Source: Devosia insulae DS-56 (lineage in GTDB: Bacteria; Pseudomonadota; Alphaproteobacteria; Rhizobiales; Devosiaceae). From it: 54,272 nt of DNA. The stretch is taken from positions 1-54,272 of the forward strand of contig NZ_LAJE02000074.1 of assembly GCF_000970465.2 (NCBI RefSeq), given 5' to 3'. Below are positions 2,060 to 54,232 of this stretch, in pieces. The translations under genes were made by a program, and so were the position numbers. The notes under the pieces were generated by a model. That model saw only the letters and a program-made list of their open reading frames with translations. It searched no databases and was not told where the DNA came from. The stretch's first letter is position 1, and every line of letters starts with the position of its first letter.

Positions 2060-2099
2060 CTGCAAAGTTGCAAACTGTGAAATTGCGAACTTGCGAATG
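2060..2099. promoter_or_regulatory. Putative PccR operator: direct repeats around TTGCAAA/TTGCGAA
   Basis: The divergent pccB–pccR gap holds a run of 8-bp-spaced repeats: TGCAAAGT, TGCAAACT, GTGAAATT, GCGAACTT and GCGAATGG. They end on the pccR start codon. Rhodobacter PccR, the founding member of the ScfR family, is known to bind TTTGCAA-type repeats, so this is the expected operator for autoregulation and for control of pccB. The sequence is seen directly; the binding is inferred. Because the repeats abut the ATG there is no room for a Shine–Dalgarno sequence, so pccR may be translated from a leaderless or nearly leaderless message. Confidence 0.6.
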
Positions 2100-3503
2100 G
2101 CTGACCGTAAGATCTTCGCCGGGGCCCGGGTGCGGGCGGCGCGCACCAAGGTGGGGCTGACGCAGCGCGAGCTGGCGCGGCGGCTCGAAATCTCGGTGTC
2201 GTATCTCAACCAGATCGAGAACAACCAGCGGCCGCTGACGGCTTCGCTGATGCTGACGCTGGCCGAGAATTTCGGGCTCGACCTCGTGGAGCTGACCTCG
2301 GAAGGGGCCGACCGGGTGCTGGCCGATCTGCGCGAGGCGATGGCCGACCCGCTGTTCGGTGAGGCCGCGCCAGGACTGATCGAGCTCAAGTCGGTGGCAG
2401 CGAGCGCGCCCGATACGGCACGGGCGATGCTGCGGCTCTATGAGGCCTATCGCAAGGCGAACGAGCGGCTGATGGGGGCGGACGCGGCGATGGTCGGTGG
2501 CCCGGGACCGCAGACGAGCTACGAAGAAGTGCGCGACTTCTTCCACTACGCCAACAACTACATCGATCCGCTTGATCTCGCTGCCGAGACCTTGGCGGCG
2601 AGTATCGGCTTCGCCCTGCATGGACGGCTCGAGCGGCTGGCCAATCATCTCACGGCACGGCATCGGATTTCGGTGATGTTCGAGGAGCCGAACTCACCGG
2701 ATCAGTTGCGGCGGTTCGATCGGGCCTCGCGCACCATCGTGCTGAACGGACGGCTGGCGCCGGCGACGCAGTATTTCCAGCTCGGCGTGCAGCTGGCGCT
2801 GATCGAGCAGGCGGAACTGATCGACGAGATCGTCGCCGGGGCGGAGTTCAAGACCCGGCAGGCGGCTGATATCTGCCGGCTGGGACTGGCCAACTATTTC
2901 GCCGGGGCATTGCAGATGCCGTATGGGGCGTTCCTCACGGCAGCGGATCGCACTGGCTACGACGTCGAAGAGCTGGCGTTCGAGTTCGGAGCGTCGATGG
3001 AACAAGTCGGGCACCGGCTGTCGACTATGCAGCGGCCCAGGGCGCGCGGCGTGCCGTTCTTTTTTGCGCGGGTGGATGCGGCGGGGACGATCACCAAGCG
3101 GCACTCGGCAACGCCGCTGCAGTTCCCGCGCTTTGGCGGTGCGTGCCCGCTCTGGAACGTGCACTGGGTGTTCGGCGAGCATAACGGGCGGATCGCGCGG
3201 CAACTGGCAGAGACGCCGGACGGCAACCGCTATCTTTGCCTCGCCTGGTCGGAGGAGAAGCACACCGGCGGATTTCGCGGACCGGTGCGGCGCTATGCCT
3301 ACGCGCTGGGCTGCGAGGTGACGCATGCGAGCAAGCTGACCTATGCGGCTGACCTCGACCTGACGCGCGGGTTCGAGCCGATCGGCATCAGTTGCCGGAT
3401 CTGTCCGCGCACCAACTGCATCCAGCGCTCGGTGCCGCCGATGGACGCGCGGCTGGAGATCGATGTCGATCGGCGCGAAGTGGTGCCGTATCGGCTGGGG
3501 TGA
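2097..3503 (+). CDS. pccR: ScfR/PccR-family short-chain acyl-CoA-responsive regulator
   Basis: A 468-residue cytoplasmic transcription factor. An N-terminal XRE helix-turn-helix (about residues 10–65, with [20 protein letters not shown]) is followed by an IrrE/M78-like middle region and a C-terminal DUF2083 part carrying CRICPRTNC. This architecture defines the ScfR family, whose Rhodobacter member PccR activates propionyl-CoA carboxylase genes in response to propionyl-CoA. The divergent position next to pccB makes the same role likely here. The ATG at 2097 is preferred over the TTG at 2091; both lie inside the operator repeats and neither has a clear ribosome binding site. The middle domain shows no HExxH, so protease activity is not expected. 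Confidence 0.85.
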
Positions 3504-3511
3504 GATAGCAA

Positions 3512-3539
3512 GAAGCCCCGGGCTCGGGCCCGGGGCTTC
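3512..3539 (+). terminator. Hairpin terminator after pccR
   Basis: A perfect inverted repeat with arms GAAGCCCCGGGC and the matching GCCCGGGGCTTC around a short TCG loop starts 9 nt after the pccR stop. There is no long T-run after it, so termination efficiency is uncertain, but the stem is strong and the position is right. Confidence 0.65.
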
Positions 3540-3557
3540 CAAACATCGGCGGTGACT

Positions 3558-3667
3558 GGGATCACTACAGTGCCCCTAGAGATGACTGCAAACACAGTCA
3601 CTCGGGGATCATTGCTAGCGCAACGACCCTGGGGGGATCACCGCACGTGCGGTGACCCTGAGATCAC
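3558..3667. repeat. Tandem hairpin array 1 (four 19–25-nt units plus a half unit)
   Basis: Units at 3558–3576, 3579–3603, 3605–3629 and 3634–3658 each form a short hairpin, and a half unit follows at 3660–3667. Three of the four are exactly 25 nt. On the minus strand the outer arms are GGGTCA or GAGTGA on the left and TGATCCC or TCATCTC on the right, with one unpaired T kept before the last three bases. The inner stems differ (CCGC with GCGG, GTTGC with GCAAT, CTG with CAG) yet stay paired. The half unit supplies the stop codon of the 3664–3930 gene. The array fills the gap between two convergent genes. Related arrays flank cobT. Confidence 0.75.
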
Positions 3668-3930
3668 TGGTTGCCGACGTAGTCCTTGAGGATCTTTTCG
3701 TTCTTGGCCTGCTCGAGCTGGCGCACCACATCGCGCGCGTTGCGGTCATCGGTGCGGTATTTGACGAGATTCACCAGGCTCCCCATCAGCAGCACGATGC
3801 CCATGCCCCAATACCCCTTGGTTGACAGGTCGACCGGCGCGAGCCAGAGCGACAGCGAGAGCAGGAACAGCGCGGCGGCGACGCCGGCGGCGTTGAACAT
3901 GATGTAGACTTGGTTGTTGTCGGCGTTCAT
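3664..3930 (-). CDS. YiaA/YiaB-type small inner-membrane protein
   Basis: An 88-residue protein with two predicted membrane helices (about residues 8–30 and 38–58), separated by a short loop with KGYWGMGI, and a charged cytoplasmic tail rich in Asp, Arg and Lys. The two-helix layout and the Y-W-x-M-G-I stretch match the YiaA/YiaB family, which has no settled function. It lies 36 bp downstream of pspA on the same strand and is probably cotranscribed, so a role in membrane stress or organisation is a reasonable inference. Its stop codon lies inside a repeat unit of hairpin array 1. Confidence 0.75.
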   Translation of the reverse strand: MNADNNQVYIMFNAAGVAAALFLLSLSLWLAPVDLSTKGYWGMGIVLLMGSLVNLVKYRTDDRNARDVVRQLEQAKNEKILKDYVGNQ

Positions 3931-3966
3931 TTCGGTGGTTCCCTTTGGTTCGAATGCGGTTGCGGC

Positions 3967-4647
3967 TTAGAGGTTCGTGGACTTGAGGCGGGCGAGCACG
4001 TCGTCGGCGCGGACCTTGGTCTTGTCGCCGAAGCCGGCTTCGCCGAGGCGATCGCGGATGCCCTTCTCGCTGAGGCCAGCATCGATCTCGTCGAGCACCT
4101 CGCTCTCGGCGAACGGATCGGGGCCGTTGACGACGCGGGCGATCAGGTCCTCGGCCTCGCGGATCGAGCTGGTGGCGCCGATCGAGCGGTTGAGCGATTT
4201 CTGCGCCTTGCGCTCGGCATCGGCGGCGCGGGCCGAGATCATGCCCTGCCGCAGGTCGATGATGCGGCGGTTGGCTTTCTCGACCGAGGCCTGGGTGCGG
4301 GCGACGCGGTTGGCGAGTTGATCGAGGGTATCGCGGCGCACAGCCCGCTCGTTCTCCAGATTGGCAATGGCGGTGGCGGTATCGGCGGCCAGGTCCTCAC
4401 GGCCGGCGGCCAGCGCCTGACGCGCCCGGGTCTCGAGATCTGCAATCTGGGTGTCGAGACGGCTCAGGGTCTGGGTCTCGTTGCGCTGCCGGATGATCAG
4501 GGCGGCGAGGGTTGACTTGGCGAGCGACAGCGCCGCCTCGGACTCACGGATCTTCTGCTCGATCAGGTCGATGGCGAAATGATCGATAAGCTGCTCTTCG
4601 GCGCGGGCCGAGGCGCCCCGGAACAGGGTCTTCAGAACGTTCAACAT
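3967..4647 (-). CDS. pspA: PspA/IM30-family membrane-stress protein
   Basis: A 226-residue, almost wholly alpha-helical protein beginning MLNVLKTLFRGASARAEE, with long heptad-rich coiled-coil stretches between about residues 25 and 150. This is the PspA/IM30/Vipp1 fold, an ESCRT-III relative that oligomerises on the inner face of the cytoplasmic membrane and protects it during envelope stress. The usual enterobacterial partners pspBC and pspF are absent. Its neighbours are the yiaA-like gene downstream and a TetR-type regulator upstream. Two copies of a palindrome that also lies before the tetR gene sit in this promoter region, which suggests TetR control rather than PspF and sigma-54 control. 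Confidence 0.85.
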   Translation of the reverse strand: MLNVLKTLFRGASARAEEQLIDHFAIDLIEQKIRESEAALSLAKSTLAALIIRQRNETQTLSRLDTQIADLETRARQALAAGREDLAADTATAIANLENERAVRRDTLDQLANRVARTQASVEKANRRIIDLRQGMISARAADAERKAQKSLNRSIGATSSIREAEDLIARVVNGPDPFAESEVLDEIDAGLSEKGIRDRLGEAGFGDKTKVRADDVLARLKSTNL

Positions 4648-4685
4648 CGCAGTACGTCTCCCTTCGGTTGGTGTCGGCGTTTAAT

Positions 4686-4756
4686 TGGACGCTGTTCACA
4701 ACGACCAACATACCGGGTTTTAAACGGCGTTCAAGAGAAAAATTGAACGCCGTTTA
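4686..4756 (-). promoter_or_regulatory. pspA promoter region with paired TetR-type palindromes
   Basis: Two copies of a 13-bp pseudo-palindrome are seen here: TAAACGGCGTTCA at 4721–4733 and, inverted, TGAACGCCGTTTA at 4744–4756, with centres 23 bp apart. A weaker relative (TGGACGCTGTTCA) lies at 4686–4698. A near-identical site, TAAACGACGTTCA, is just upstream of the tetR gene at 5788–5800. Shared palindromes at a TetR gene and a neighbouring target are the normal sign of one regulator controlling both. The sites are directly visible; the regulator assignment is inferred. Confidence 0.65.
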
Positions 4757-4954
4757 GATTGGAGTTTGGGCTGAATGGATTCAATGGGTTGTGGCCGGCT
4801 TCTGGTGTGGAATCAGCGGGATCGCTGAGTGGGCTTTTGTCTCTGCCTCGACTCGATGTCGTCCCGGCGAGGCGGGATCCGCCCTGATACTTCCGCTACC
4901 CCCAGCGCCTACCGAACCATCGCAGGATGGGCCTGGGTCGCGCCCCCCCCCCGG

Positions 4955-5036
4955 GTCATTCCCGCGAAAGCGGGAACCTCTGTTTTGTCCCTGCTGCACG
5001 ATCGCAAACGGAGTTCCCCGCTTTCGCGGGGATGAC
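4955..5036. repeat. REP-like pair: inverted copies of a GTCATTCCCGCGAAAGCGGG element
   Basis: The element GTCATTCCCGCGAAAGCGGG at 4955–4974 is itself a hairpin and recurs in inverted orientation at 5014–5036 as TTCCCCGCTTTCGCGGGGAT followed by GAC. This is a common intergenic palindromic repeat of proteobacteria. A run of ten C residues directly precedes it (4942–4951) and would be error-prone in sequencing. Apart from this and the pspA operator sites, nothing gene-like is seen between 4757 and 5164; open frames there cross the repeats and look spurious. Confidence 0.75.
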
Positions 5037-5164
5037 ACCGAGTTTGGGGGACTTGTAGAGTCTCGGTTCGCATACCCAGCGTCACGCAGTCTGGTGGCCA
5101 GTTCGCCGATAGGCCCTGCACATAGGCCTTCGCCGAGGTGACGCTGGCATTGGTGCAGTCCTGC

Positions 5165-5770
5165 CTACTTCGCGCGATGGGCGTAGGCGAGGATGTGCAT
5201 GTCGACCAGCTCGTGCACGACCTTGCCGATGTCGCGATCCATGATCAGGTTGAGTCGGCCGGAGCTGTCGAGCGAGACGACGGAGTGGATCGAGGCAAAG
5301 ACCAGTTGGCCGGACTGGCGGGCCACTTTGTCATCGAGGTCGGGGCGAATGTCCTGGAAGCACTGGGCGATGATGCGGATCAGCGAGGCGATGGCCTCGA
5401 TGTACCAGGGCGGCACCAGTTGGTCGGGCTTGCGGCGGAACTCGAACAGGGCGTTCCACAGGTTCCGCTTCAGCGCGATGTAACCCAGGAAGGCATCAGC
5501 GTAGTTGTGCAGCATCTGCCGCGGGTCGCTGGAGGGCGTGGCGTCGGCGAAGGCGCGGGCAAGGCCGACCAGGGTGCGGGTGTTCACCTGGGTGACGATG
5601 TCGTCGAGATCCTTGAAGTGGTGATAGAGCGTGCCGGCGGTGTAGCCGATGGCCCGGCTCAGCGAGCGGGCGGAGAAGGCATCGATCCCCTCCTCGGCAA
5701 TCAGCTCCTCGGCCGTGTTGACGACGAGGCTCGCGAGCTCTTCCTTCGAATGGTCGGCACGACGGGCCAT
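5165..5770 (-). CDS. TetR/AcrR-family transcriptional regulator
   Basis: A 201-residue protein with the typical TetR N-terminal helix-turn-helix (about residues 8–55, containing ARSLSRAIGYTAGTLYHHFK) and an all-helical ligand-binding C-terminal domain. The HTH core GYTAGTLYHHFKDLDD is canonical. Its ligand cannot be told from sequence. A 13-bp palindrome centred about 24 bp before its start codon occurs twice in the pspA promoter, so it probably represses itself and the pspA–yiaA unit. The start ATGGCCCGT was chosen because it places the HTH at the normal distance and follows a GGAGG-like ribosome binding site. Confidence 0.88.
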   Translation of the reverse strand: MARRADHSKEELASLVVNTAEELIAEEGIDAFSARSLSRAIGYTAGTLYHHFKDLDDIVTQVNTRTLVGLARAFADATPSSDPRQMLHNYADAFLGYIALKRNLWNALFEFRRKPDQLVPPWYIEAIASLIRIIAQCFQDIRPDLDDKVARQSGQLVFASIHSVVSLDSSGRLNLIMDRDIGKVVHELVDMHILAYAHRAK

Positions 5771-6027: not shown

Positions 6028-7887
6028 TCAGCTCTGGCCGCCGGAGACCAGGGAGGTGATGCGGCGGACGGTGGCGCGGCGGTTGGCGCGTTCGGCGCCG
6101 TCGGTCTCGACCTTGAGGTAGCGCTCGCCATAGCCCTGCGTGGTGAGGTTCTCCGGCGGGATGTCGTAGAACTCGGTCAACAGGTCCGCGATGGTGCCGG
6201 CACGTTCGTCGGAGAGGACGAGATTGGATTCGTCCGAGCCGACCGCGTCGGTGTGACCCTCGATGAGGAAGGTCTCGCCCGGGTTGCGGGCGAGGATCTT
6301 CTTCATCGCCTCGGCCACCTTGCCGAGCGAGCCGACCTGGTCGCGGCCGAGCTGGGCCGAGCCGGTCTCGAAGGTCAGGTCACCGATCTCGACGCGGCGG
6401 ACGGTGTCACGGATACGCGCCGAGCGTTTCACCTCGTCGACGGTATAGACGCGGGCGGCCTTTTCCAGCGGCGGTTCGCTGAGGAAGCGTTCGATGTCGT
6501 CCTCGTCGGAGCGCTCGCTGTAGAGCACATAGTCGTCCACCGGGATCGGCAGGTAGAACGGCGGCAGATCGTCGCCCGGATCGCGCCAGTCATCGTCCCG
6601 ACGATCGTCGGGGGAGAAGACCAGGATGATGCGGGTGCCATCGGGCAGCACCTTCACCCGCCGGATGATTTCGCCGTAGCGGTTCCACACCGTGACCACA
6701 CGCGTGCCGTCCGGCCGGATGACGGTCTGGCGATAGCGGCCGTTGTCGAGCTCTTCATAGTAGACCTCGTCACCGCGGCCGATGCGGTCGCGATCCTTGT
6801 AGGGCGTGAAGATGTTGATCTGGATGCCGATGTTGATGATCAGCCGGTCACCGTCCTTCTTGGCCTCCTGCGCGGCAGGAGGAGCTTCCGGTGCCGGGAG
6901 CTGGTCGACGCGCGTGCCTTCGGTGGCTACCGCTGCCTCGACTTCCTCGGCCGGAGGCGGAGCCTGGGTCTGAGCTTCGGCGTCGGTCGCCGGCGGCGGA
7001 ACCTCGGCGGCAGGCGGCTGGGCCGGAGCAGGCTGTTCGGCGCCCGCACCCTCCGCATCCTTGGCGCTGTCGAGCACCGGGGCGGCCGGGGCGTCAGGCG
7101 TTTCCTGATCGGGGACCACTTCGAGCGGCTGGCCCGACTGGTCGGTCGGCGGAGCTTCACCCGGCTGGGCGGGTTCGGTCGGGGTTGCGGGTTCGGCAGG
7201 TGCAGCCGGAGCCGGGGCACCACCCATCAGCGCCAGGCACTCGTCGAGCGACTGAATGCCGAGACGGTTGCATTCGGAGAGGAAAGCAGCCTCGGCGGCA
7301 GCCTTGGCGTTGGCGTCACCACCGGAACCGGCAGAGACATAGGCCTCGAACGCGGCGATCAGTGCCGGATCGCTGGCCGGGGACGGCTGCTCGGCGGGAG
7401 CCGCAGGCTGCTCGGCCGGAGCCGGCTCTGCGGGCTGTTCGGCAGCGGGGGCCTCCTCAGCTGGCGCGGCGGGTTGCTCGGCAGCGGGGGCCTCCGCAGC
7501 TGGCGCGGCGGGTTGCTCGGCGGGAGCGGCCGGCTGTTCGGCGGGCGGCGCTGGCTCCTCAGCAGGGGGCGCTGGTTCCTCAGCAGGGGGCGCTGGCTCT
7601 TCAGCAGGAGGTGCGGCCTCCTCGGCTGGCGGAGCGGGCGGCTCGACGGTAGCGGCGCCGGTGGCGATGGCGATGCACTGTTGCAGGTCGGGTGTACCAA
7701 GACGCTGGCACTCGGCAAGGAAGGCCGCCTCGGCCGCGGCCTTGGCATCGGGGTCATCGCCGCTCTGGGCTTCGACATAGGCATTGTAGGCCGCCGTCAG
7801 CCCCGCATCCTGCGCCAGGGCAGGTAGAGGGAGCAGCGAGAGGAGGCATAGGCTCGTGGTGGTAAGCAATAAGCGCTTGAGCTGCAT
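6028..7887 (-). CDS. OmpA-family outer-membrane protein with duplicated N-terminal module and Pro/Ala/Glu-rich linker
   Basis: A 619-residue exported protein. The signal peptide (about residues 1–25) ends in LPALAQ. Two copies of a roughly 40-residue module follow, each with AYNAYV or AFEAYV, then AAAEAAFL, then EC and C residues (QCIAIA and ECLALM), separated by a long linker of PAEE and PAEQ repeats. A second low-complexity stretch precedes the C-terminal OmpA domain (about residues 500–610), which contains TFETGSAQLG, IEGHTDAVGSDESN, LSDERA and TTQGYGE. That domain binds peptidoglycan. The linker probably spans the periplasm. The ATG at 7887 is chosen over 7899 because GGAG lies 6 nt upstream of it. 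Homologues occur widely in Hyphomicrobiales; the role of the duplicated module is unknown. Confidence 0.85.
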   Translation of the reverse strand: MQLKRLLLTTTSLCLLSLLPLPALAQDAGLTAAYNAYVEAQSGDDPDAKAAAEAAFLAECQRLGTPDLQQCIAIATGAATVEPPAPPAEEAAPPAEEPAPPAEEPAPPAEEPAPPAEQPAAPAEQPAAPAAEAPAAEQPAAPAEEAPAAEQPAEPAPAEQPAAPAEQPSPASDPALIAAFEAYVSAGSGGDANAKAAAEAAFLSECNRLGIQSLDECLALMGGAPAPAAPAEPATPTEPAQPGEAPPTDQSGQPLEVVPDQETPDAPAAPVLDSAKDAEGAGAEQPAPAQPPAAEVPPPATDAEAQTQAPPPAEEVEAAVATEGTRVDQLPAPEAPPAAQEAKKDGDRLIINIGIQINIFTPYKDRDRIGRGDEVYYEELDNGRYRQTVIRPDGTRVVTVWNRYGEIIRRVKVLPDGTRIILVFSPDDRRDDDWRDPGDDLPPFYLPIPVDDYVLYSERSDEDDIERFLSEPPLEKAARVYTVDEVKRSARIRDTVRRVEIGDLTFETGSAQLGRDQVGSLGKVAEAMKKILARNPGETFLIEGHTDAVGSDESNLVLSDERAGTIADLLTEFYDIPPENLTTQGYGERYLKVETDGAERANRRATVRRITSLVSGGQS

Positions 7888-33645: not shown

Positions 33646-33661
33646 GGGGTGGCAACACTTT

Positions 33662-33735
33662 CGGCAATCGGCAGTCGGCAATCGGCAGTCGCAACAGCAG
33701 CAAGTTCGACTGCCGACTGCCGATTGCCGACTGCC
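33662..33735. repeat. Long inverted repeat between nadE and gltX built of CGGCAATCGGCAGT units
   Basis: Each arm (33662–33691 and 33707–33735) is itself a tandem of GGCAATCGGCAGTC-like units. The two arms are reverse complements over about 29 bp around a 15-nt spacer. It lies between two co-directional genes, so it could form a strong RNA hairpin that reduces read-through from nadE into gltX. Such GGCAATC/GGCAGTC palindromes are known as dispersed low-complexity repeats in many genomes. Confidence 0.8.
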
Positions 33736-35470: not shown

Positions 35471-35561
35471 GTGGAAAATCCGAGCCGTTTGAAAACGCGG
35501 CAAGACTTATCCGCTCACCCCGGTCGGGGCAAGCGGACAGCCGGTCATGGAGAATCTGAGA

Positions 35562-36701
35562 TCAGAACCGGTAGGTCAGCTCGGCGAGCAGGCCATAGCG
35601 GAACAGCTGGAAGGGGTTTTCGGTCTGGATGTAGTCGTCCAGCTCCAGGGTGGGCGCCGAATAAAGCGGATCAGCCGGGATCGTGTCCGCTGGATCGTCG
35701 GAATCGGGGTCGTCGACTTCGGGCTGGATTTGCGGTGCCGTCACCAGAGCGCCGGTATAGGTTGCGTCGTAGGTGCCCTGCACATACCAGGCACGGCCGC
35801 CAAGCCTCAGCGTGATGTTCTCGGTCGGATGGAAGCCAGCCATGAGCTCTGCCATGCCGCCGTAGCCCCAGCCGGTGATTTCGGTTGCCGAGGCCTTGAA
35901 GAACAGTGGAGCGCAGGCGTCCGGCGCGAGCACCGGACATCCGGTGTACGGTCCAAGCGTGCCGTCACTGCTTCCGGCGTGGCCACCCAGGACGCCGTTG
36001 ATCGTGGCAAACGGCACAGCAGCGACTTCGGCGCTGATGTCGAAGAAGTCGCTGACTTCCGCCTTGCCGCTCAGACCCAGGCGCAACATGTGCAACTCGA
36101 GCTTGTCGTCGACGCTGTCACCGGGGAGCGACCAGACGCCGGTGTCCTCGCTATAGGCGATGTCGCCTGCACTCGTCGCCGTGGTGTAGTTGGCACGCGA
36201 AGTGCGAGGCGAGTTGTTCCAGTAGTTGTAGCCGACGAAGACGCCGGCGCCGGTCCCCTGACCATCGCTGAAGGCGTTCCAGCCGAAATCCGCACCGCCA
36301 TAGCCGAGCTGGCCATCGGTCACCGGAGCGCTGGAATAGGGATCGGTGAACTCGCCGTTGATGGCCGCGGAATAACCGACCCAGCCCTTGGCGTAGGTAC
36401 TGGTGGAATCTTCCTCGACCCGGATATGGGCTTCGACCGAATGTGCATTGTCGGACTCCGAGAACGTCTCGCCGCCCAGTTCGAAATTCTGGCTGCCCCA
36501 CGAATACCAGTAGCGTAGGCCGGTCTCGATATGGATGCCGTCGCTCTCGTCGCCCATCTCGGTCCAGTCCTTGGGCTCGGTCGAGTAGGCGCCGCGATAG
36601 ACCTCCTCAGGCGACCAGTCCTCCCCCCAATCGGCGGCCAAGGCCGAGCTGCCGATAGCGGCAGCAAGAACGGCGAGACTGGTTGCCAGACGGATGGACA
36701 T
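35562..36701 (-). CDS. Predicted outer-membrane beta-barrel protein
   Basis: A 379-residue exported protein. The signal peptide (MSIRLATSLAVLAAAIGSSA, cleavage near ALAAD) is followed by alternating aromatic and polar strands such as GLRYWYSWGSQNFELGG, ITLRLGGRAWYVQGTY and the C-terminal FRYGLLAELTYRF. The final Phe and strand pattern are typical of BAM-assembled barrels. Acidic inserts (PEVDDPDSDDPADTIPADP) probably form surface loops, and two cysteines (TGCPVLAPDACAP) may close one loop. I do not recognise a named family. It is monocistronic, between nadE and a divergent response regulator. Confidence 0.7.
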   Translation of the reverse strand: MSIRLATSLAVLAAAIGSSALAADWGEDWSPEEVYRGAYSTEPKDWTEMGDESDGIHIETGLRYWYSWGSQNFELGGETFSESDNAHSVEAHIRVEEDSTSTYAKGWVGYSAAINGEFTDPYSSAPVTDGQLGYGGADFGWNAFSDGQGTGAGVFVGYNYWNNSPRTSRANYTTATSAGDIAYSEDTGVWSLPGDSVDDKLELHMLRLGLSGKAEVSDFFDISAEVAAVPFATINGVLGGHAGSSDGTLGPYTGCPVLAPDACAPLFFKASATEITGWGYGGMAELMAGFHPTENITLRLGGRAWYVQGTYDATYTGALVTAPQIQPEVDDPDSDDPADTIPADPLYSAPTLELDDYIQTENPFQLFRYGLLAELTYRF

Positions 36702-42458: not shown

Positions 42459-43541
42459 ATGTCCCTGACGCTTCTCGAACAGCCGAACCTCGCTCCCACG
42501 GGCGCGAATCCAGTGCCCTCGGGCGCGAACCCAGTGCTCTCTGGTGCGGCGCGCCCGCTCATCGATCGCTACGGCCGGCGCATCAGCTACCTCAGGGTAT
42601 CGGTGACCGATCGCTGCGACTTCCGCTGCGTCTATTGCATGTCGGAGCACATGACCTTCCTGCCCAAGAAGGACGTGCTGAGCTTCGAAGAGATCGACAC
42701 CATCGTGAACGCCTTCGTCGCCCGCGGGGTCAGGAAGGTACGGCTGACCGGCGGCGAGCCGCTGGTACGCCGTGACATCATGGAGCTGGTGGAGAAGATC
42801 GGGGGTCACATCGGGCACGGGCTCGAGGAGCTGACGCTCACCACCAATGGCAGCCAGTTGCGACGCTACGCCGAGGGCCTCGTCCAATCAGGAGTGAAGC
42901 GGCTCAACGTGTCGCTCGATACGCTCGACGAGCAACGCTTCGCGGAGATCACCCGGCGCGGCCGGATCGCCGATGTGCTCGATGGGATCGACGCGGCAGC
43001 TGATGCCGGGCTGAAGATCAAGATCAACATGGTGGCAATGCGCGGCGTCAACGAGGACGAGATCGAGCCGATGCTGCATTGGGCGCATGGCCGCGGTTTC
43101 GGGCTGACGCTGATCGAGGGCATGCCGCTGGGCGAGGTCGGCATCGACCGGGTCGACACCTACCTGCCGCTCAAGGAGATGCGCGAGCGGCTCAAGGCGA
43201 AATATACCTTGGAGCCGAGCGGGCACCGCACCGGCGGGCCGGCGCGCTACGATTACGTGGCCGAGACCAACGGGCTGGTCGGCTTCATCACGCCGATGAG
43301 CCACAATTTCTGCGAGAGCTGCAACCGAGTCCGGCTCACAGCGACCGGGCAGCTCTACATGTGCCTGGGGCAGGACGACATGGTCGACCTGCGGGCGGCG
43401 ATCCGCGAGGGCGGCCCGGACGCGCTGGATGTGGCGCTGGACCGGGCGATGCTGCTCAAGCCCAAGGGCCACGATTTCGTGCTGGATCGCGATCACACGG
43501 CGCCAGCCTTGAGCCGGCACATGAGTGTGACGGGGGGCTGA
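42459..43541 (+). CDS. moaA: GTP 3',8-cyclase MoaA
   Basis: A 360-residue radical-SAM enzyme that starts molybdenum-cofactor synthesis by cyclising GTP. The SAM-binding iron–sulfur cluster motif is CDFRCVYC and the second cluster uses [19 protein letters not shown]. The protein ends in the Gly-Gly pair needed for catalysis (SVTGG). The ATG at 42459 follows an AAAGGGGA ribosome binding site. About 35 residues precede the core, and within them a 21-bp unit is tandemly repeated ([16 protein letters not shown]), an unusual low-complexity leader. moaC and other moa genes are not adjacent. Confidence 0.94.
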
Positions 43542-51614: not shown

Positions 51615-51703
51615 CTGTCGCTGACCCCGGGTCAGCTATTGCCGCTGACCCCCGGGTCAGTTTTTGCCGCTGACCCGCGGGGTCAGTTTTTGTCGCTGAC
51701 CCC
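51615..51703. repeat. Tandem hairpin array 3 (three units plus a half unit) at the 3' end of cobT
   Basis: Units at 51629–51651, 51654–51676 and 51679–51703 each consist of GGGTCAG and CTGACCC arms around an 8–9-nt loop (TATTGCC, TTTTTGCCG or TTTTTGTCG). A half unit follows at 51615–51628. The third unit contains the cobT stop codon and encodes its last residues. The loops differ from those of array 2, but the outer arms are of the same type. Confidence 0.85.
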
Positions 51704-52720
51704 GGCGCTGCCGAAGGTGGCCATGTTGTTGTGGAGGTGGAGCGCCGTCTTGGCAAGCACGGCAGCGAGCGCGGCGCCGCTCCCCTCCCCCAGCCGCATG
51801 CCGAGGTTGAGCAACGGGCGCTTGCCCATCGCCTCGAGGGCCCGGGCATGGGCATGCTCGCCCGAGAGGTGGCCGAAGATGCAATGGTCGATCGCGTCGG
51901 GGTTCACCGCCTGCGCGATGGCCGCAGCGGCGGTGGCGACAAAACCATCGACGATCACCGGGATCTTCTGCTGGCGCGTCGAGATGATGGCGCCGAGCAT
52001 GGCGGCGATCTCGCGGCCGCCGAGGCGGGCGAGGATGGCGAGCGGGTCGCCCAGTGCATCCCTATGCAGCGCCAGCGCACGATCGACGGCATCGGCCTTT
52101 CGGGCGAGCCCGGCGTCGTCGACCCCGGTGCCGCGGCCGACCCAGTCGGCGCCGCTGCCGCCAAACAGCGCAGCGTAGATGGCGGCGGCGACGGTGGTGT
52201 TGCCGATGCCCATCTCGCCGATGGCGAGCAGATCGGGCTTACCGGCCACTGCTTCCATGCCATAGGCGACAGTGGCGGCGCACATGCGATCGTCCATCGC
52301 GGCGGTGCGGGTGATATCGCCGGTGGGTAGCTCCAGCGCCAGTTCGAAGACGCGCAGGTTCAGCTCGTGCAGTGCGCAGATCTGGCTGACGGCGGCGCCG
52401 CCGGCGGTGAAGTTGGCGACCATCTGCGCCGTCACTTCGCGCGGGAAAGCGGAGACGCCCTGGTCGGTGACGCCGTGATTGGCGGCGAAGATCGCGACCA
52501 TCGGGTTATCGAGGGTGGGCTTGGCCTTCCCCTGCCAGCGGCCGAGAAACTCGACCAGGTGCTCAAGTTCGCCGAGCGAGCCGGGCGGCTTGGTGAGCTG
52601 GCGATCGCGCTGGCGGATGGCAGCGACGGCGCTTTCATCTCCGGAGGGCGCGATGTGCAACAGGTCGATGATATCGGCGAAGGGGGACGGCAATTTCGGC
52701 TCCGGCTCAGGGGTCGCCAC
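51683..52720 (-). CDS. cobT: Nicotinate-nucleotide–dimethylbenzimidazole phosphoribosyltransferase
   Basis: A 345-residue enzyme that makes alpha-ribazole phosphate for the lower ligand of cobalamin (also called CobU in some alphaproteobacterial nomenclature). Motifs in order are KPPGSLGELEHLVEFLG, NHGVTDQGVSAFPREVT, AIGEMGIGNTTVAAAI, GRGTGVDDAGLARK, GGREIAAMLGAI and NLGMRLGEGSGAALA, which holds the catalytic Glu. The last residues, GVSDKN, come from repeat array 3, whose unit gives the stop codon. The product of its partner pathway, cobS, lies divergently beyond an SRPBCC gene. No cobalamin riboswitch was seen upstream. Confidence 0.95.
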   Translation of the reverse strand: MATPEPEPKLPSPFADIIDLLHIAPSGDESAVAAIRQRDRQLTKPPGSLGELEHLVEFLGRWQGKAKPTLDNPMVAIFAANHGVTDQGVSAFPREVTAQMVANFTAGGAAVSQICALHELNLRVFELALELPTGDITRTAAMDDRMCAATVAYGMEAVAGKPDLLAIGEMGIGNTTVAAAIYAALFGGSGADWVGRGTGVDDAGLARKADAVDRALALHRDALGDPLAILARLGGREIAAMLGAIISTRQQKIPVIVDGFVATAAAAIAQAVNPDAIDHCIFGHLSGEHAHARALEAMGKRPLLNLGMRLGEGSGAALAAVLAKTALHLHNNMATFGSAGVSDKN

Positions 52721-52757: not shown

Positions 52758-52857
52758 GGGGATCAGCAAAGGCTGACCCGGGGATCAGCAAAGGCTGACC
52801 CGGGGGATCAGCAAAGGCTGACCCGGGGATCAGCAAAGGCAGACCCGGGGATCAGCC
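52758..52857. repeat. Tandem hairpin array 2 (four 22-nt units plus a half unit) upstream of cobT
   Basis: Units at 52758–52779, 52780–52801, 52803–52824 and 52825–52846 are identical except for one base in the last. On the minus strand each has arms GGGTCAGC and GCTGATCCCC around CTTT, with one unpaired T. The half unit at 52847–52857 contains the SRPBCC stop codon. The array ends 37 bp before the cobT start. Confidence 0.88.
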
Positions 52858-53316
52858 GATGCCCAGCCGGGCCTTGAGATCGGCCTCGCCCCAGCCCATC
52901 AGGACGTTGTGGTTCCAGGCGAAGGCCGGGCGGAGCAACGGCACCAGGGTTCGCATCCAGGGCTTACCGAGATCGACCCGCCAGTCGTATCGCACTGAAG
53001 TTCCGCTGCCGTCTGGCTCGAGGGTCCAGAGCCCCACGCCGCTGAGCTCGCCACTGGCGTGCCCCTCGATCAGCTGCATCGGCTCGATCCGGGTCGAAAC
53101 CACCTCGAAGGTAATGGTGTAGGGCAGCGCCGTGGCCCAGGTGAGACGGCGGAGCGCCCCGACCCCACCCGCATCGCCGTCGCGAATCCGCTCGACGTTG
53201 CGCACGGCACGCCACCAGGAGGGCCAGGCGTCGACGTCGACGATCTCAGGCCAGACGCGATCCAGCGGTGCGGCGATCCGCCAATGCGACACCAGTTCGA
53301 ACTGCGTGACACTCAT
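52852..53316 (-). CDS. SRPBCC-fold (START/Bet v1-like) protein
   Basis: A 154-residue single-domain protein. The N-terminus FELVSHWRIAAPLDRVWPEI and the following DVDAWPSWWRAVRNVE are typical of polyketide cyclase/dehydrase-like SRPBCC proteins, which enclose a hydrophobic ligand in a helix-grip fold. No catalytic residues can be named. It lies between divergent cob genes, upstream of cobT on the same strand, so a link to cobalamin or lipid ligands is possible but not shown. Its stop codon belongs to hairpin array 2. Confidence 0.8.
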   Translation of the reverse strand: MSVTQFELVSHWRIAAPLDRVWPEIVDVDAWPSWWRAVRNVERIRDGDAGGVGALRRLTWATALPYTITFEVVSTRIEPMQLIEGHASGELSGVGLWTLEPDGSGTSVRYDWRVDLGKPWMRTLVPLLRPAFAWNHNVLMGWGEADLKARLGIG

Positions 53317-53359
53317 CTTGCAATGCCCCCTCGGCTGAAGGACAAGCGAGCATCGACCC

Positions 53360-54232
53360 ATGGCACGGGAACCGCAAGTGAGCGACGACACGCCCCGCAC
53401 GCCTCCGCGGCAGGATAACTTCCGCCCCGGGGCGGAGCCTCAACCGCCGCAGCCCGAGGCGTTTGGCTGGCGCCTGGCGGACGACCTGATCATGGGGCTC
53501 AGGTTCTTCTCGCGGCTGCCCACCGGCGATAGCCCGTTCGAGCAGCCGAACCTCAACCGGATCGCCGTGGGCCTGAGCTTTACCAGCGTCGCCATCGGCT
53601 TCCTGCCGGCCCTGCTGATGATGCTTGCCGCCTGGCTCGGCGTGCCGAGCTATTTCGCGGCAGCGCTGGGTGTCGCCGCGATGCTGGTGGCCACCGGCGC
53701 CATGGCGGATGATGCATTGGCCGACAGCGCCGATGGGTTGATTGGCGGAGCGACGATCGAGCGGCGGCTCGAGATCATGAAGGACAGCCGTCACGGCACC
53801 TATGGGGTGGCAGCGATCGGGCTCTATTTGCTGCTGCGGGTGACGGCGATCGGCGCAGTGGCGGCGTACAACCCGCTGGCCGCCGCGGCGATCTGGCTGG
53901 CCTCGACGGTGATCGGCCGCTCGGCTTCGCTCTGGGTCAGCGTCGCGCTGCCCAATGCCCGTGAAGGCGGCGCCTCGGCCTCGGTCGGACGGGTGTCGCG
54001 GCGGGCGTTCTTCGGCGGCATGGGTTTTGCCGTGCTGCTGGCATTCGTGCTGGCGGCGCCGTTCACCAGTGTGGTGGCAGTGATCCTGTCGCTCGCCGCG
54101 GCGGCGGGCGTCGCGGCGGTGTGGGTGTGGACCTGCCGCAAGCTGATCGGCGGACAGACCGGCGACCTGATCGGAGCGCTGCAGGCGCTGATCGAGGTCG
54201 CCGGGCTGACCGGGCTGCTGGTGGTCGTCTAG
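53360..54232 (+). CDS. cobS: Adenosylcobinamide-GDP ribazoletransferase (cobalamin synthase)
   Basis: A 290-residue integral membrane enzyme that joins adenosylcobinamide-GDP with alpha-ribazole, the last assembly step of cobalamin. The family motif DALADSADGLIGGATIERRL followed by EIMKDSRHGTYG (with metal-binding Asp residues) is intact, and about seven hydrophobic helices follow. A proline-rich cytoplasmic leader of some 35 residues precedes the first membrane-near segment MGLRFFSRLPTGDSP. It is divergent from SRPBCC and cobT. Its stop codon lies inside a long palindrome. Confidence 0.93.
   Translation: MAREPQVSDDTPRTPPRQDNFRPGAEPQPPQPEAFGWRLADDLIMGLRFFSRLPTGDSPFEQPNLNRIAVGLSFTSVAIGFLPALLMMLAAWLGVPSYFAAALGVAAMLVATGAMADDALADSADGLIGGATIERRLEIMKDSRHGTYGVAAIGLYLLLRVTAIGAVAAYNPLAAAAIWLASTVIGRSASLWVSVALPNAREGGASASVGRVSRRAFFGGMGFAVLLAFVLAAPFTSVVAVILSLAAAAGVAAVWVWTCRKLIGGQTGDLIGALQALIEVAGLTGLLVVV

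Follow-up and report, generated by a model that had tools for sequence, protein, structure and literature searches.

Three tandem arrays of short hairpins, each opened by a TGA stop on the same strand, lie in the window, that is, in the whole stretch of 54,272 nucleotides analysed here (contig C74 of the source genome G000, a 5.75-Mb draft in 410 contigs; other G-labels denote comparison genomes of the genus or family). The arrays are real and lineage-specific, and close relatives have fewer units or none. At one and the same stop, the unit number varies between close relatives, down to none. The explanation that we consider best, held with slightly less than even confidence, is that these are young tandem hairpins, born by fold-back template switching, multiplied by slippage, and formed mostly in place at stops.

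Array 1 follows a yiaAB-like gene. The features of this region are:

2091-3503, plus strand: ScfR-type regulator, on the other flank of array 1
3512-3539: terminator-like hairpin with perfect 12-bp arms, between convergent genes
3558-3576, minus strand: array 1 unit d, 19 nt, the unit common to G000 and G004
3579-3603, minus strand: array 1 unit c, 25-nt hairpin with GAG/CTC outer arms (from RNA fold and pair count)
3605-3629, minus strand: array 1 unit b, 25-nt hairpin (from folds and unit coordinates)
3634-3658, minus strand: array 1 unit a, 25-nt hairpin (from folds and unit coordinates)
3664-3930, minus strand: yiaAB-like gene, with array 1 opening at its TGA (3664-3666)

The minus-strand order is yiaAB TGA, TCTCA, units a to d, a tail and the perfect 12-bp terminator-like hairpin. 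The original prediction, made from the sequence alone, had placed a tandem hairpin array at 3558-3667, and four minus-strand units are indeed found there, three of exactly 25 nt and a fourth of 19 nt. The pairings that it listed (CCGC/GCGG, GTTGC/GCAAT and CTG/CAG) are borne out, and unit c has GAG/CTC in place of GGG/CCC. Its statement that the inner stems differ completely does not stand: in a gap-free alignment of units a-c, one of the inner pairs 7-10 is identical in all three, two are C-G or T-A and one is C-G or T-G. The units differ at 8 (a-b), 10 (a-c) and 10 (b-c) of the 25 positions. The single T described as unpaired in three units is indeed so when they are folded as DNA, and it stays unpaired in unit c folded as RNA. 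Units a and b, folded as RNA, instead engage this T in a G-U pair and lose their final C from the stem.

The minus strand of array 1 folds at -71.6 kcal/mol versus -48.4 ± 3.8 kcal/mol for shuffled sequences (z -6.1, 0 of 200 shuffles), and the plus strand at z -3.4 (1 of 200 shuffles). Unit d is weak, with z -0.2 when folded as single-stranded DNA and one broken pair in the ten-unit pair count described below. Loops of 4 nt are seen in the folds of units a-d and of the array 3 unit.

The other two arrays lie close to each other, at a cobT-like gene and at the gene immediately upstream of it, and a fourth stop in the window is also of interest:

35558-35564, minus strand: TGATCTC stop of a 379-aa ORF (stop codon 35562-35564), the site of a 26-nt hairpin-forming insertion in G004
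51629-51702, minus strand: array 2, with units 51680-51702, 51654-51676 and 51629-51651
51683-52720, minus strand: cobT-like gene, with its stop inside the first hairpin of array 2
52759-52846, minus strand: array 3, with units 52826-52846, 52804-52824, 52781-52801 and 52759-52779
52852-53400, minus strand: SRPBCC (polyketide cyclase-like) gene, with array 3 opening at its stop

Array 2 begins within the last cobT codons and the stop, and array 3 at the SRPBCC stop. The first hairpin starts 5 nt past the stop at arrays 1 and 3 and overlaps it at array 2, so that a stable hairpin is always found within 15 nt of the stop. Fold z is -5.4 for the array 2 region and -5.6 for the array 3 region, mainly from long nested stems spanning units rather than from separate hairpins. 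At the fourth stop, the 26-nt insertion is present in G004 only, among G000, G003, G004 and G007. All four sites lie within about 50 kb, a clustering that we count as not fitting the explanation favoured here.

An origin of the arrays by chance, or as an assembly artefact in a GC-rich draft genome, is disfavoured and would be very surprising. The 410 contigs of G000 leave room for it, and array 1 as a whole is missed by arm-based detectors, which find arrays 2 and 3 both in the window and in G004. Against it stand the fold z of the three arrays (-6.1, -5.6 and -5.4) and the presence of units at the same sites in the separate genome G004. With no mismatches allowed, the arm-based detectors gave 1 match versus 2 in one shuffle for a 226-kb sample of G000, 6 versus 3 for 420 kb of G004 (two of the six being arrays 2 and 3), 5 versus 3 for 480 kb of G007 and 2 versus 0 for 80 kb of G003. 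The sole match in the G000 sample is a palindrome pair ahead of a LacI-type gene, presumably its operators. Detectors of neighbouring hairpins based on structure only were abandoned, having failed to single out the arrays.

Comparison with relatives shows how unit number changes at each stop. At the yiaAB stop, G000 has four units, G004 has one that resembles unit d, and G007 and G010 have none. In the latter two genomes, an AGTCAC tail identical to that of the unit-bearing genomes comes directly after TAGTCCC or TGATCCC. TGATCCC also follows the yiaAB stop in the more distant G015 and G001. Matches to yiaAB were found in 7 of the 19 genus genomes, and tails were read at 14 of 80 loci; units of the array 1 form are absent in G007, G010, G001, G013 and G015. 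Array 1 could conceivably have been lost, rather than never gained, in G007 and G010. After yiaAB, G001 (L039 / L060) carries TGATCCCTCCCGGTCA at the stop, another TGA/TCA quasi-palindrome in a more distant relative.

At the SRPBCC stop, compared in the four genomes where this gene precedes cobT, the units number four in G000, two in G004, one in G007 and one in G010. They are alike within G000 (one unit has a single difference) and within G004, and unlike between genomes. cobT matches were found in 18 of the 19 genus genomes, and its end was read in 16 of these, G006 and G017 being left out by a filter; units are present in G000, in G004 and, decayed, in G007, and the G003 end is empty. The distance from the cobT stop to the next start is 3 nt in G003, 51 nt in G007, 54 nt in G004 and 81 nt in G000.

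The cobT ends carry a template-switch signature: each unit repeats native codons directly and then GGGTCAG in inverted orientation. The G003 end reads GCC GGGGTCAGCGACAAG GAGGCCTAG, with the 15-mer GGGGTCAGCGACAAG present once. In G004, GCC is followed by GGGGTCAGCGACAAG AACTGACCC twice, then by the 15-mer again and GAGAGCTAG, and the new stop is supplied by the inverted copy of GGGTCAG. Local templates account for most of the unit, two bases (AA) being unaccounted for. In G007 and G010 cobT ends with GGGGTCAGCGACAAGGGCTGA, and in G014 with nearly the same sequence, so that the stop sits in a native quasi-palindrome, TCAGC/GCTGA. TGA/TCA is likewise contained in the empty yiaAB end, TGATCCCAGTCAC. 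At cobT (G003 versus G004) and at yiaAB (G010 versus G004), G004 has an inverted copy flanked by direct copies that its relative lacks.

Our proposal is that, when a quasi-palindrome at a stop codon is replicated, the nascent strand would fold back, copy its own sequence as an inverted arm and return upstream on the template. The product would be a series of direct, inverted and direct copies. Slippage between the direct copies would then add or remove units, and the copying of one arm from the other would contribute to paired changes. Template switching of this kind has been described as able to create and maintain hairpins (PMC8794818, PMC8604942), and a loop length of 4 nt is enriched among sudden compensatory changes (PMC8794818). 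Small inverted triplications of DUP/IN/DUP form have been described, as has their removal through slippage in E. coli (PMC13334657).

Each of these precedents resembles the present case in part. Template-switch RNA hairpins share with the units the production of reverse-complement stems in one event, paired changes copied from arm to arm and a preference for 4-nt loops; however, they were shown for microRNA and rRNA genes, and the word "tandem" does not occur in the main text of that study (PMC8794818). The DUP/IN/DUP triplications have the same direct, inverted and direct order with spacers, and slippage over the hairpin removes them, but their median size is 148/160/148 bp in yeast FEN1 mutants and similar in cancers (PMC13334657), whereas here the arms are of 6-8 nt and are repeated. 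Quasipalindrome-associated template-switch mutagenesis in E. coli perfects imperfect inverted repeats by copying the nascent strand; there the arms of one palindrome are corrected, whereas growth in copy number is an extra step here (PMC7202029).

A broader sign of inverted copying was found by aligning about 563 kb of G007 and 56 kb of G000 to G004. Inverted repeats of at least 8 nt are present in 14 of the 107 insertion rows (4.6 expected) and of at least 12 nt in 3 (0.1 expected); some rows repeat one locus and at least one looks terminator-like. The array 1 and array 3 insertions score no exact inverted repeat or one of only 6 nt, and therefore lie outside this excess. No local source was detectable for the inner stems of array 1 (summed p 0.47). 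It also counts against the favoured explanation that the exact inverted copy of TGATCC is GGATCA, and GGGTCA is present instead at three loci. Given the G-U pair that the T makes in units a and b as RNA, GGGTCA can be viewed as this inverted copy with one A-to-G change. The insertion-row excess and the cobT copies fit fold-back template switching followed by slippage (PMC7202029, PMC8794818, PMC13334657), and the origin is probably a known mutational process in an unusual, repeated and stop-anchored form. In G007 (L314, C6:745532-745580), GGGCAG, CTGCCC and GGGCAG lie between two TGATCCC, a small direct-inverted-direct form where G004 has a 15-nt gap.

Pairing within the units is well kept. 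In units a-c, all 30 stem cells are standard-paired in the register with one unpaired T; in four pairs both partners have changed, and two cells are G-U when read as transcript. Only in the orientation of the yiaAB transcript can the two one-sided stem changes, and likewise the T with its G, form pairs. When the observed number of stem changes was simulated, the ten pairs all remained standard in 1.6%, 0.5% and 0.4% of trials for the three pairwise comparisons of units a-c, which are not independent. Over ten units from arrays 1 and 3 in four genomes, 94.8% of 77 cells are paired, the shorter units aligning poorly and the rows being related. No shuffle out of 500, and no register out of six slid ones, reached the covariation score of these ten related units. 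Broken pairs are present in unit d and in the 52826-52846 unit. Divergence from G000 at fourfold sites is 0.236 for G004 (nine genes), 0.271 for G007 (nine), 0.304 for G010 (five) and 0.331 for G003 (six), and divergence among units a-c is 0.32-0.40. Judged from these sequence distances, units a-c may be about as old as the splits from these relatives, and hypermutability would not be required.

The original prediction took the paired changes as a sign of selection on folded RNA or single-stranded DNA. The changes are real and the one-sided ones fit the transcript, but selection is not needed to explain them, because they lie between related tandem copies and template switching copies arm from arm. 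A role as selected 3' UTR hairpins, in which RNA at the stop codon would slow ribosome release or protect the mRNA end and pair-breaking changes would be compensated, appears to us possible but rather unlikely. It would account for the complete pairing of units a-c with its four doubly altered pairs, for the fit of the one-sided changes and of the G-U to the transcribed strand, and for the covariation score. The divergence of the units is not far above neutral (compare G004 at 0.236 and G003 at 0.331), which would leave time for single compensated steps. This reading is weakened by the relatives without arrays, by the relatedness of the tandem copies compared and by the existence of units with broken pairs.

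The unit had not been recognised as any named repeat in the original prediction, in agreement with zero Rfam matches at gathering score in the window (4227 families). Membership of the REP or BIME class was rejected, since many dispersed copies, GTAG and a Y1 transposase are all lacking. The Y1 transposase family PF01797 has no match in the 19 genus genomes (the control was positive in 5 of 14), and no GTAG-type tetranucleotide lies 5' of the palindrome, units a-d being preceded by CTCA, CCCA, CCCC and TCTA. As described in PMC8266576, PMC12306157 and PMC5082802, REP/BIME and Br-REP elements resemble the units in being short 3' UTR hairpins, some at most 15 nt from the stop, some bulged and some tandem. 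They differ in being dispersed in about 200 to thousands of copies, often with GTAG and a cognate transposase.

Searches for further solitary copies of the unit pattern gave numbers close to chance. The pattern has 6 matches in G000 (arrays 1 and 3 account for 4) and 37 matches in 17 of the 19 genus genomes versus 44.9 expected from word frequencies; a second search found 56 versus 48.9 expected on the same basis, also at chance level. Across 136 family genomes, matches to the tandem junction pattern come from G000 (3), G004 (2) and G110 (1). Two TGATCCC within 14-44 nt gave 55 matches in 16 of 19 genomes versus about 41 expected from the same word frequencies, 9 of the 55 at loci described here. 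A control with the reversed pattern is misleading, since 1.84 Mb contain its rare word CCCTAGT 16 times and TGATCCC 326 times. No excess of T over G bulges was seen in GGTC/GATCC hairpins of at least 7 pairs in 1.9 Mb (T 40, G 40, A 11, C 16). TGA(T)CYC stops number 10 among 586 ORFs from a crude gene caller, in a list without the yiaAB, cobT and SRPBCC stops. A covariance model recovered its own array 1 training units and gave nothing below E 0.061 outside the training locus, in a search that was not exhaustive because 150 of 2,482-5,487 candidates per genome were scored and the array 3 units were missed. The absence of other instances in related genomes, which the original prediction had set as evidence against itself, is largely what was found, with the pattern at chance level and the covariance search null.

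One unit in G010 is an exception. On contig C154 (L015, 1501-1557, minus strand), a 134-aa ORF unrelated to the SRPBCC protein ends with TGATCCC, followed by a hairpin CGGTCGGC/GCCGATCCG and then by GGGTCAGCTCTTGCTGATCCC. The latter differs from the G004 array 3 unit by one base (an indel), so that near-identical units stand at two unlinked stops. By sequence comparison, this suggests copying, movement or repeated origin rather than purely local growth. It also speaks for the view taken in the original prediction, in that the unit is not tied to a single site. The corresponding stop is TAA in G000, TAG in G003, TAA in G004 and TGA in G007, and none of these has the GGGTCAGCTCTTGCTGATCCC unit. 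Each relative carries a different short sequence at this unlinked stop.

A low-copy mobile hairpin unit, inserted or copied into TGATCCC-type stops and then multiplied in tandem, would explain the near-identical unit of G010, which lies next to a second hairpin of other sequence, and the GGGTCA/TGATCCC arms common to the yiaAB, SRPBCC and unlinked G010 loci. It fits poorly with the lack of PF01797, the transposase family covered by the search, in all 19 genus genomes, with the lack of GTAG at the units, with pattern matches elsewhere at chance level and with a cobT array made of native codons. We regard such an element as improbable.

Other repeats are present in the window. At 33661-33735, heptamer repeats and their reverse complement make one long hairpin right after the stop of a nadE-like gene, where G004 has a GGGGGAGG-type repeat instead. 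A 21-nt repeat at 42484-42548 corresponds to insertions in G000 versus G004 and G007. Tandem repeats at 7385-7623 encode a Pro/Ala-rich stretch, of different length in relatives, of an ORF that we take to be OmpA-like.

If active at all, the hairpins would act like stop-proximal REP hairpins. We propose this by analogy, because arrays 1 and 3 have their first hairpin 5 nt past the stop, because the stop of array 2 lies within its first hairpin, and because with the cobT hairpins the next start stands 81 nt away instead of 3 nt. According to PMC12306157, which cites earlier work, ribosomes stall at REP hairpins lying no more than 15 nt from a stop. Since relatives lack the arrays, any function would be dispensable in the genus. 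A further, doubtful scenario combines several of these elements: a low-copy unit would seed TGATCCC-type stops, including unlinked ones, grow in tandem with a fixed G-U or bulged T, and be selected as RNA for termination or for the next gene. In a milder form, the arrays would be a bacterial nursery of unselected covarying hairpins that would pass covariation tests for functional RNA.

Paired changes between tandem copies are by themselves no proof of a functional RNA. At cobT, the prediction is that the array adds strong hairpins to the gene junction and lengthens it from 3 nt (G003) to 54 nt in G004 and 81 nt in G000. Within a single clade, 0, 1, 2 or 4 units at one stop form a natural series in which hairpins can be followed as they arise, multiply and stay paired, and the same series lets one ask when selection takes hold.
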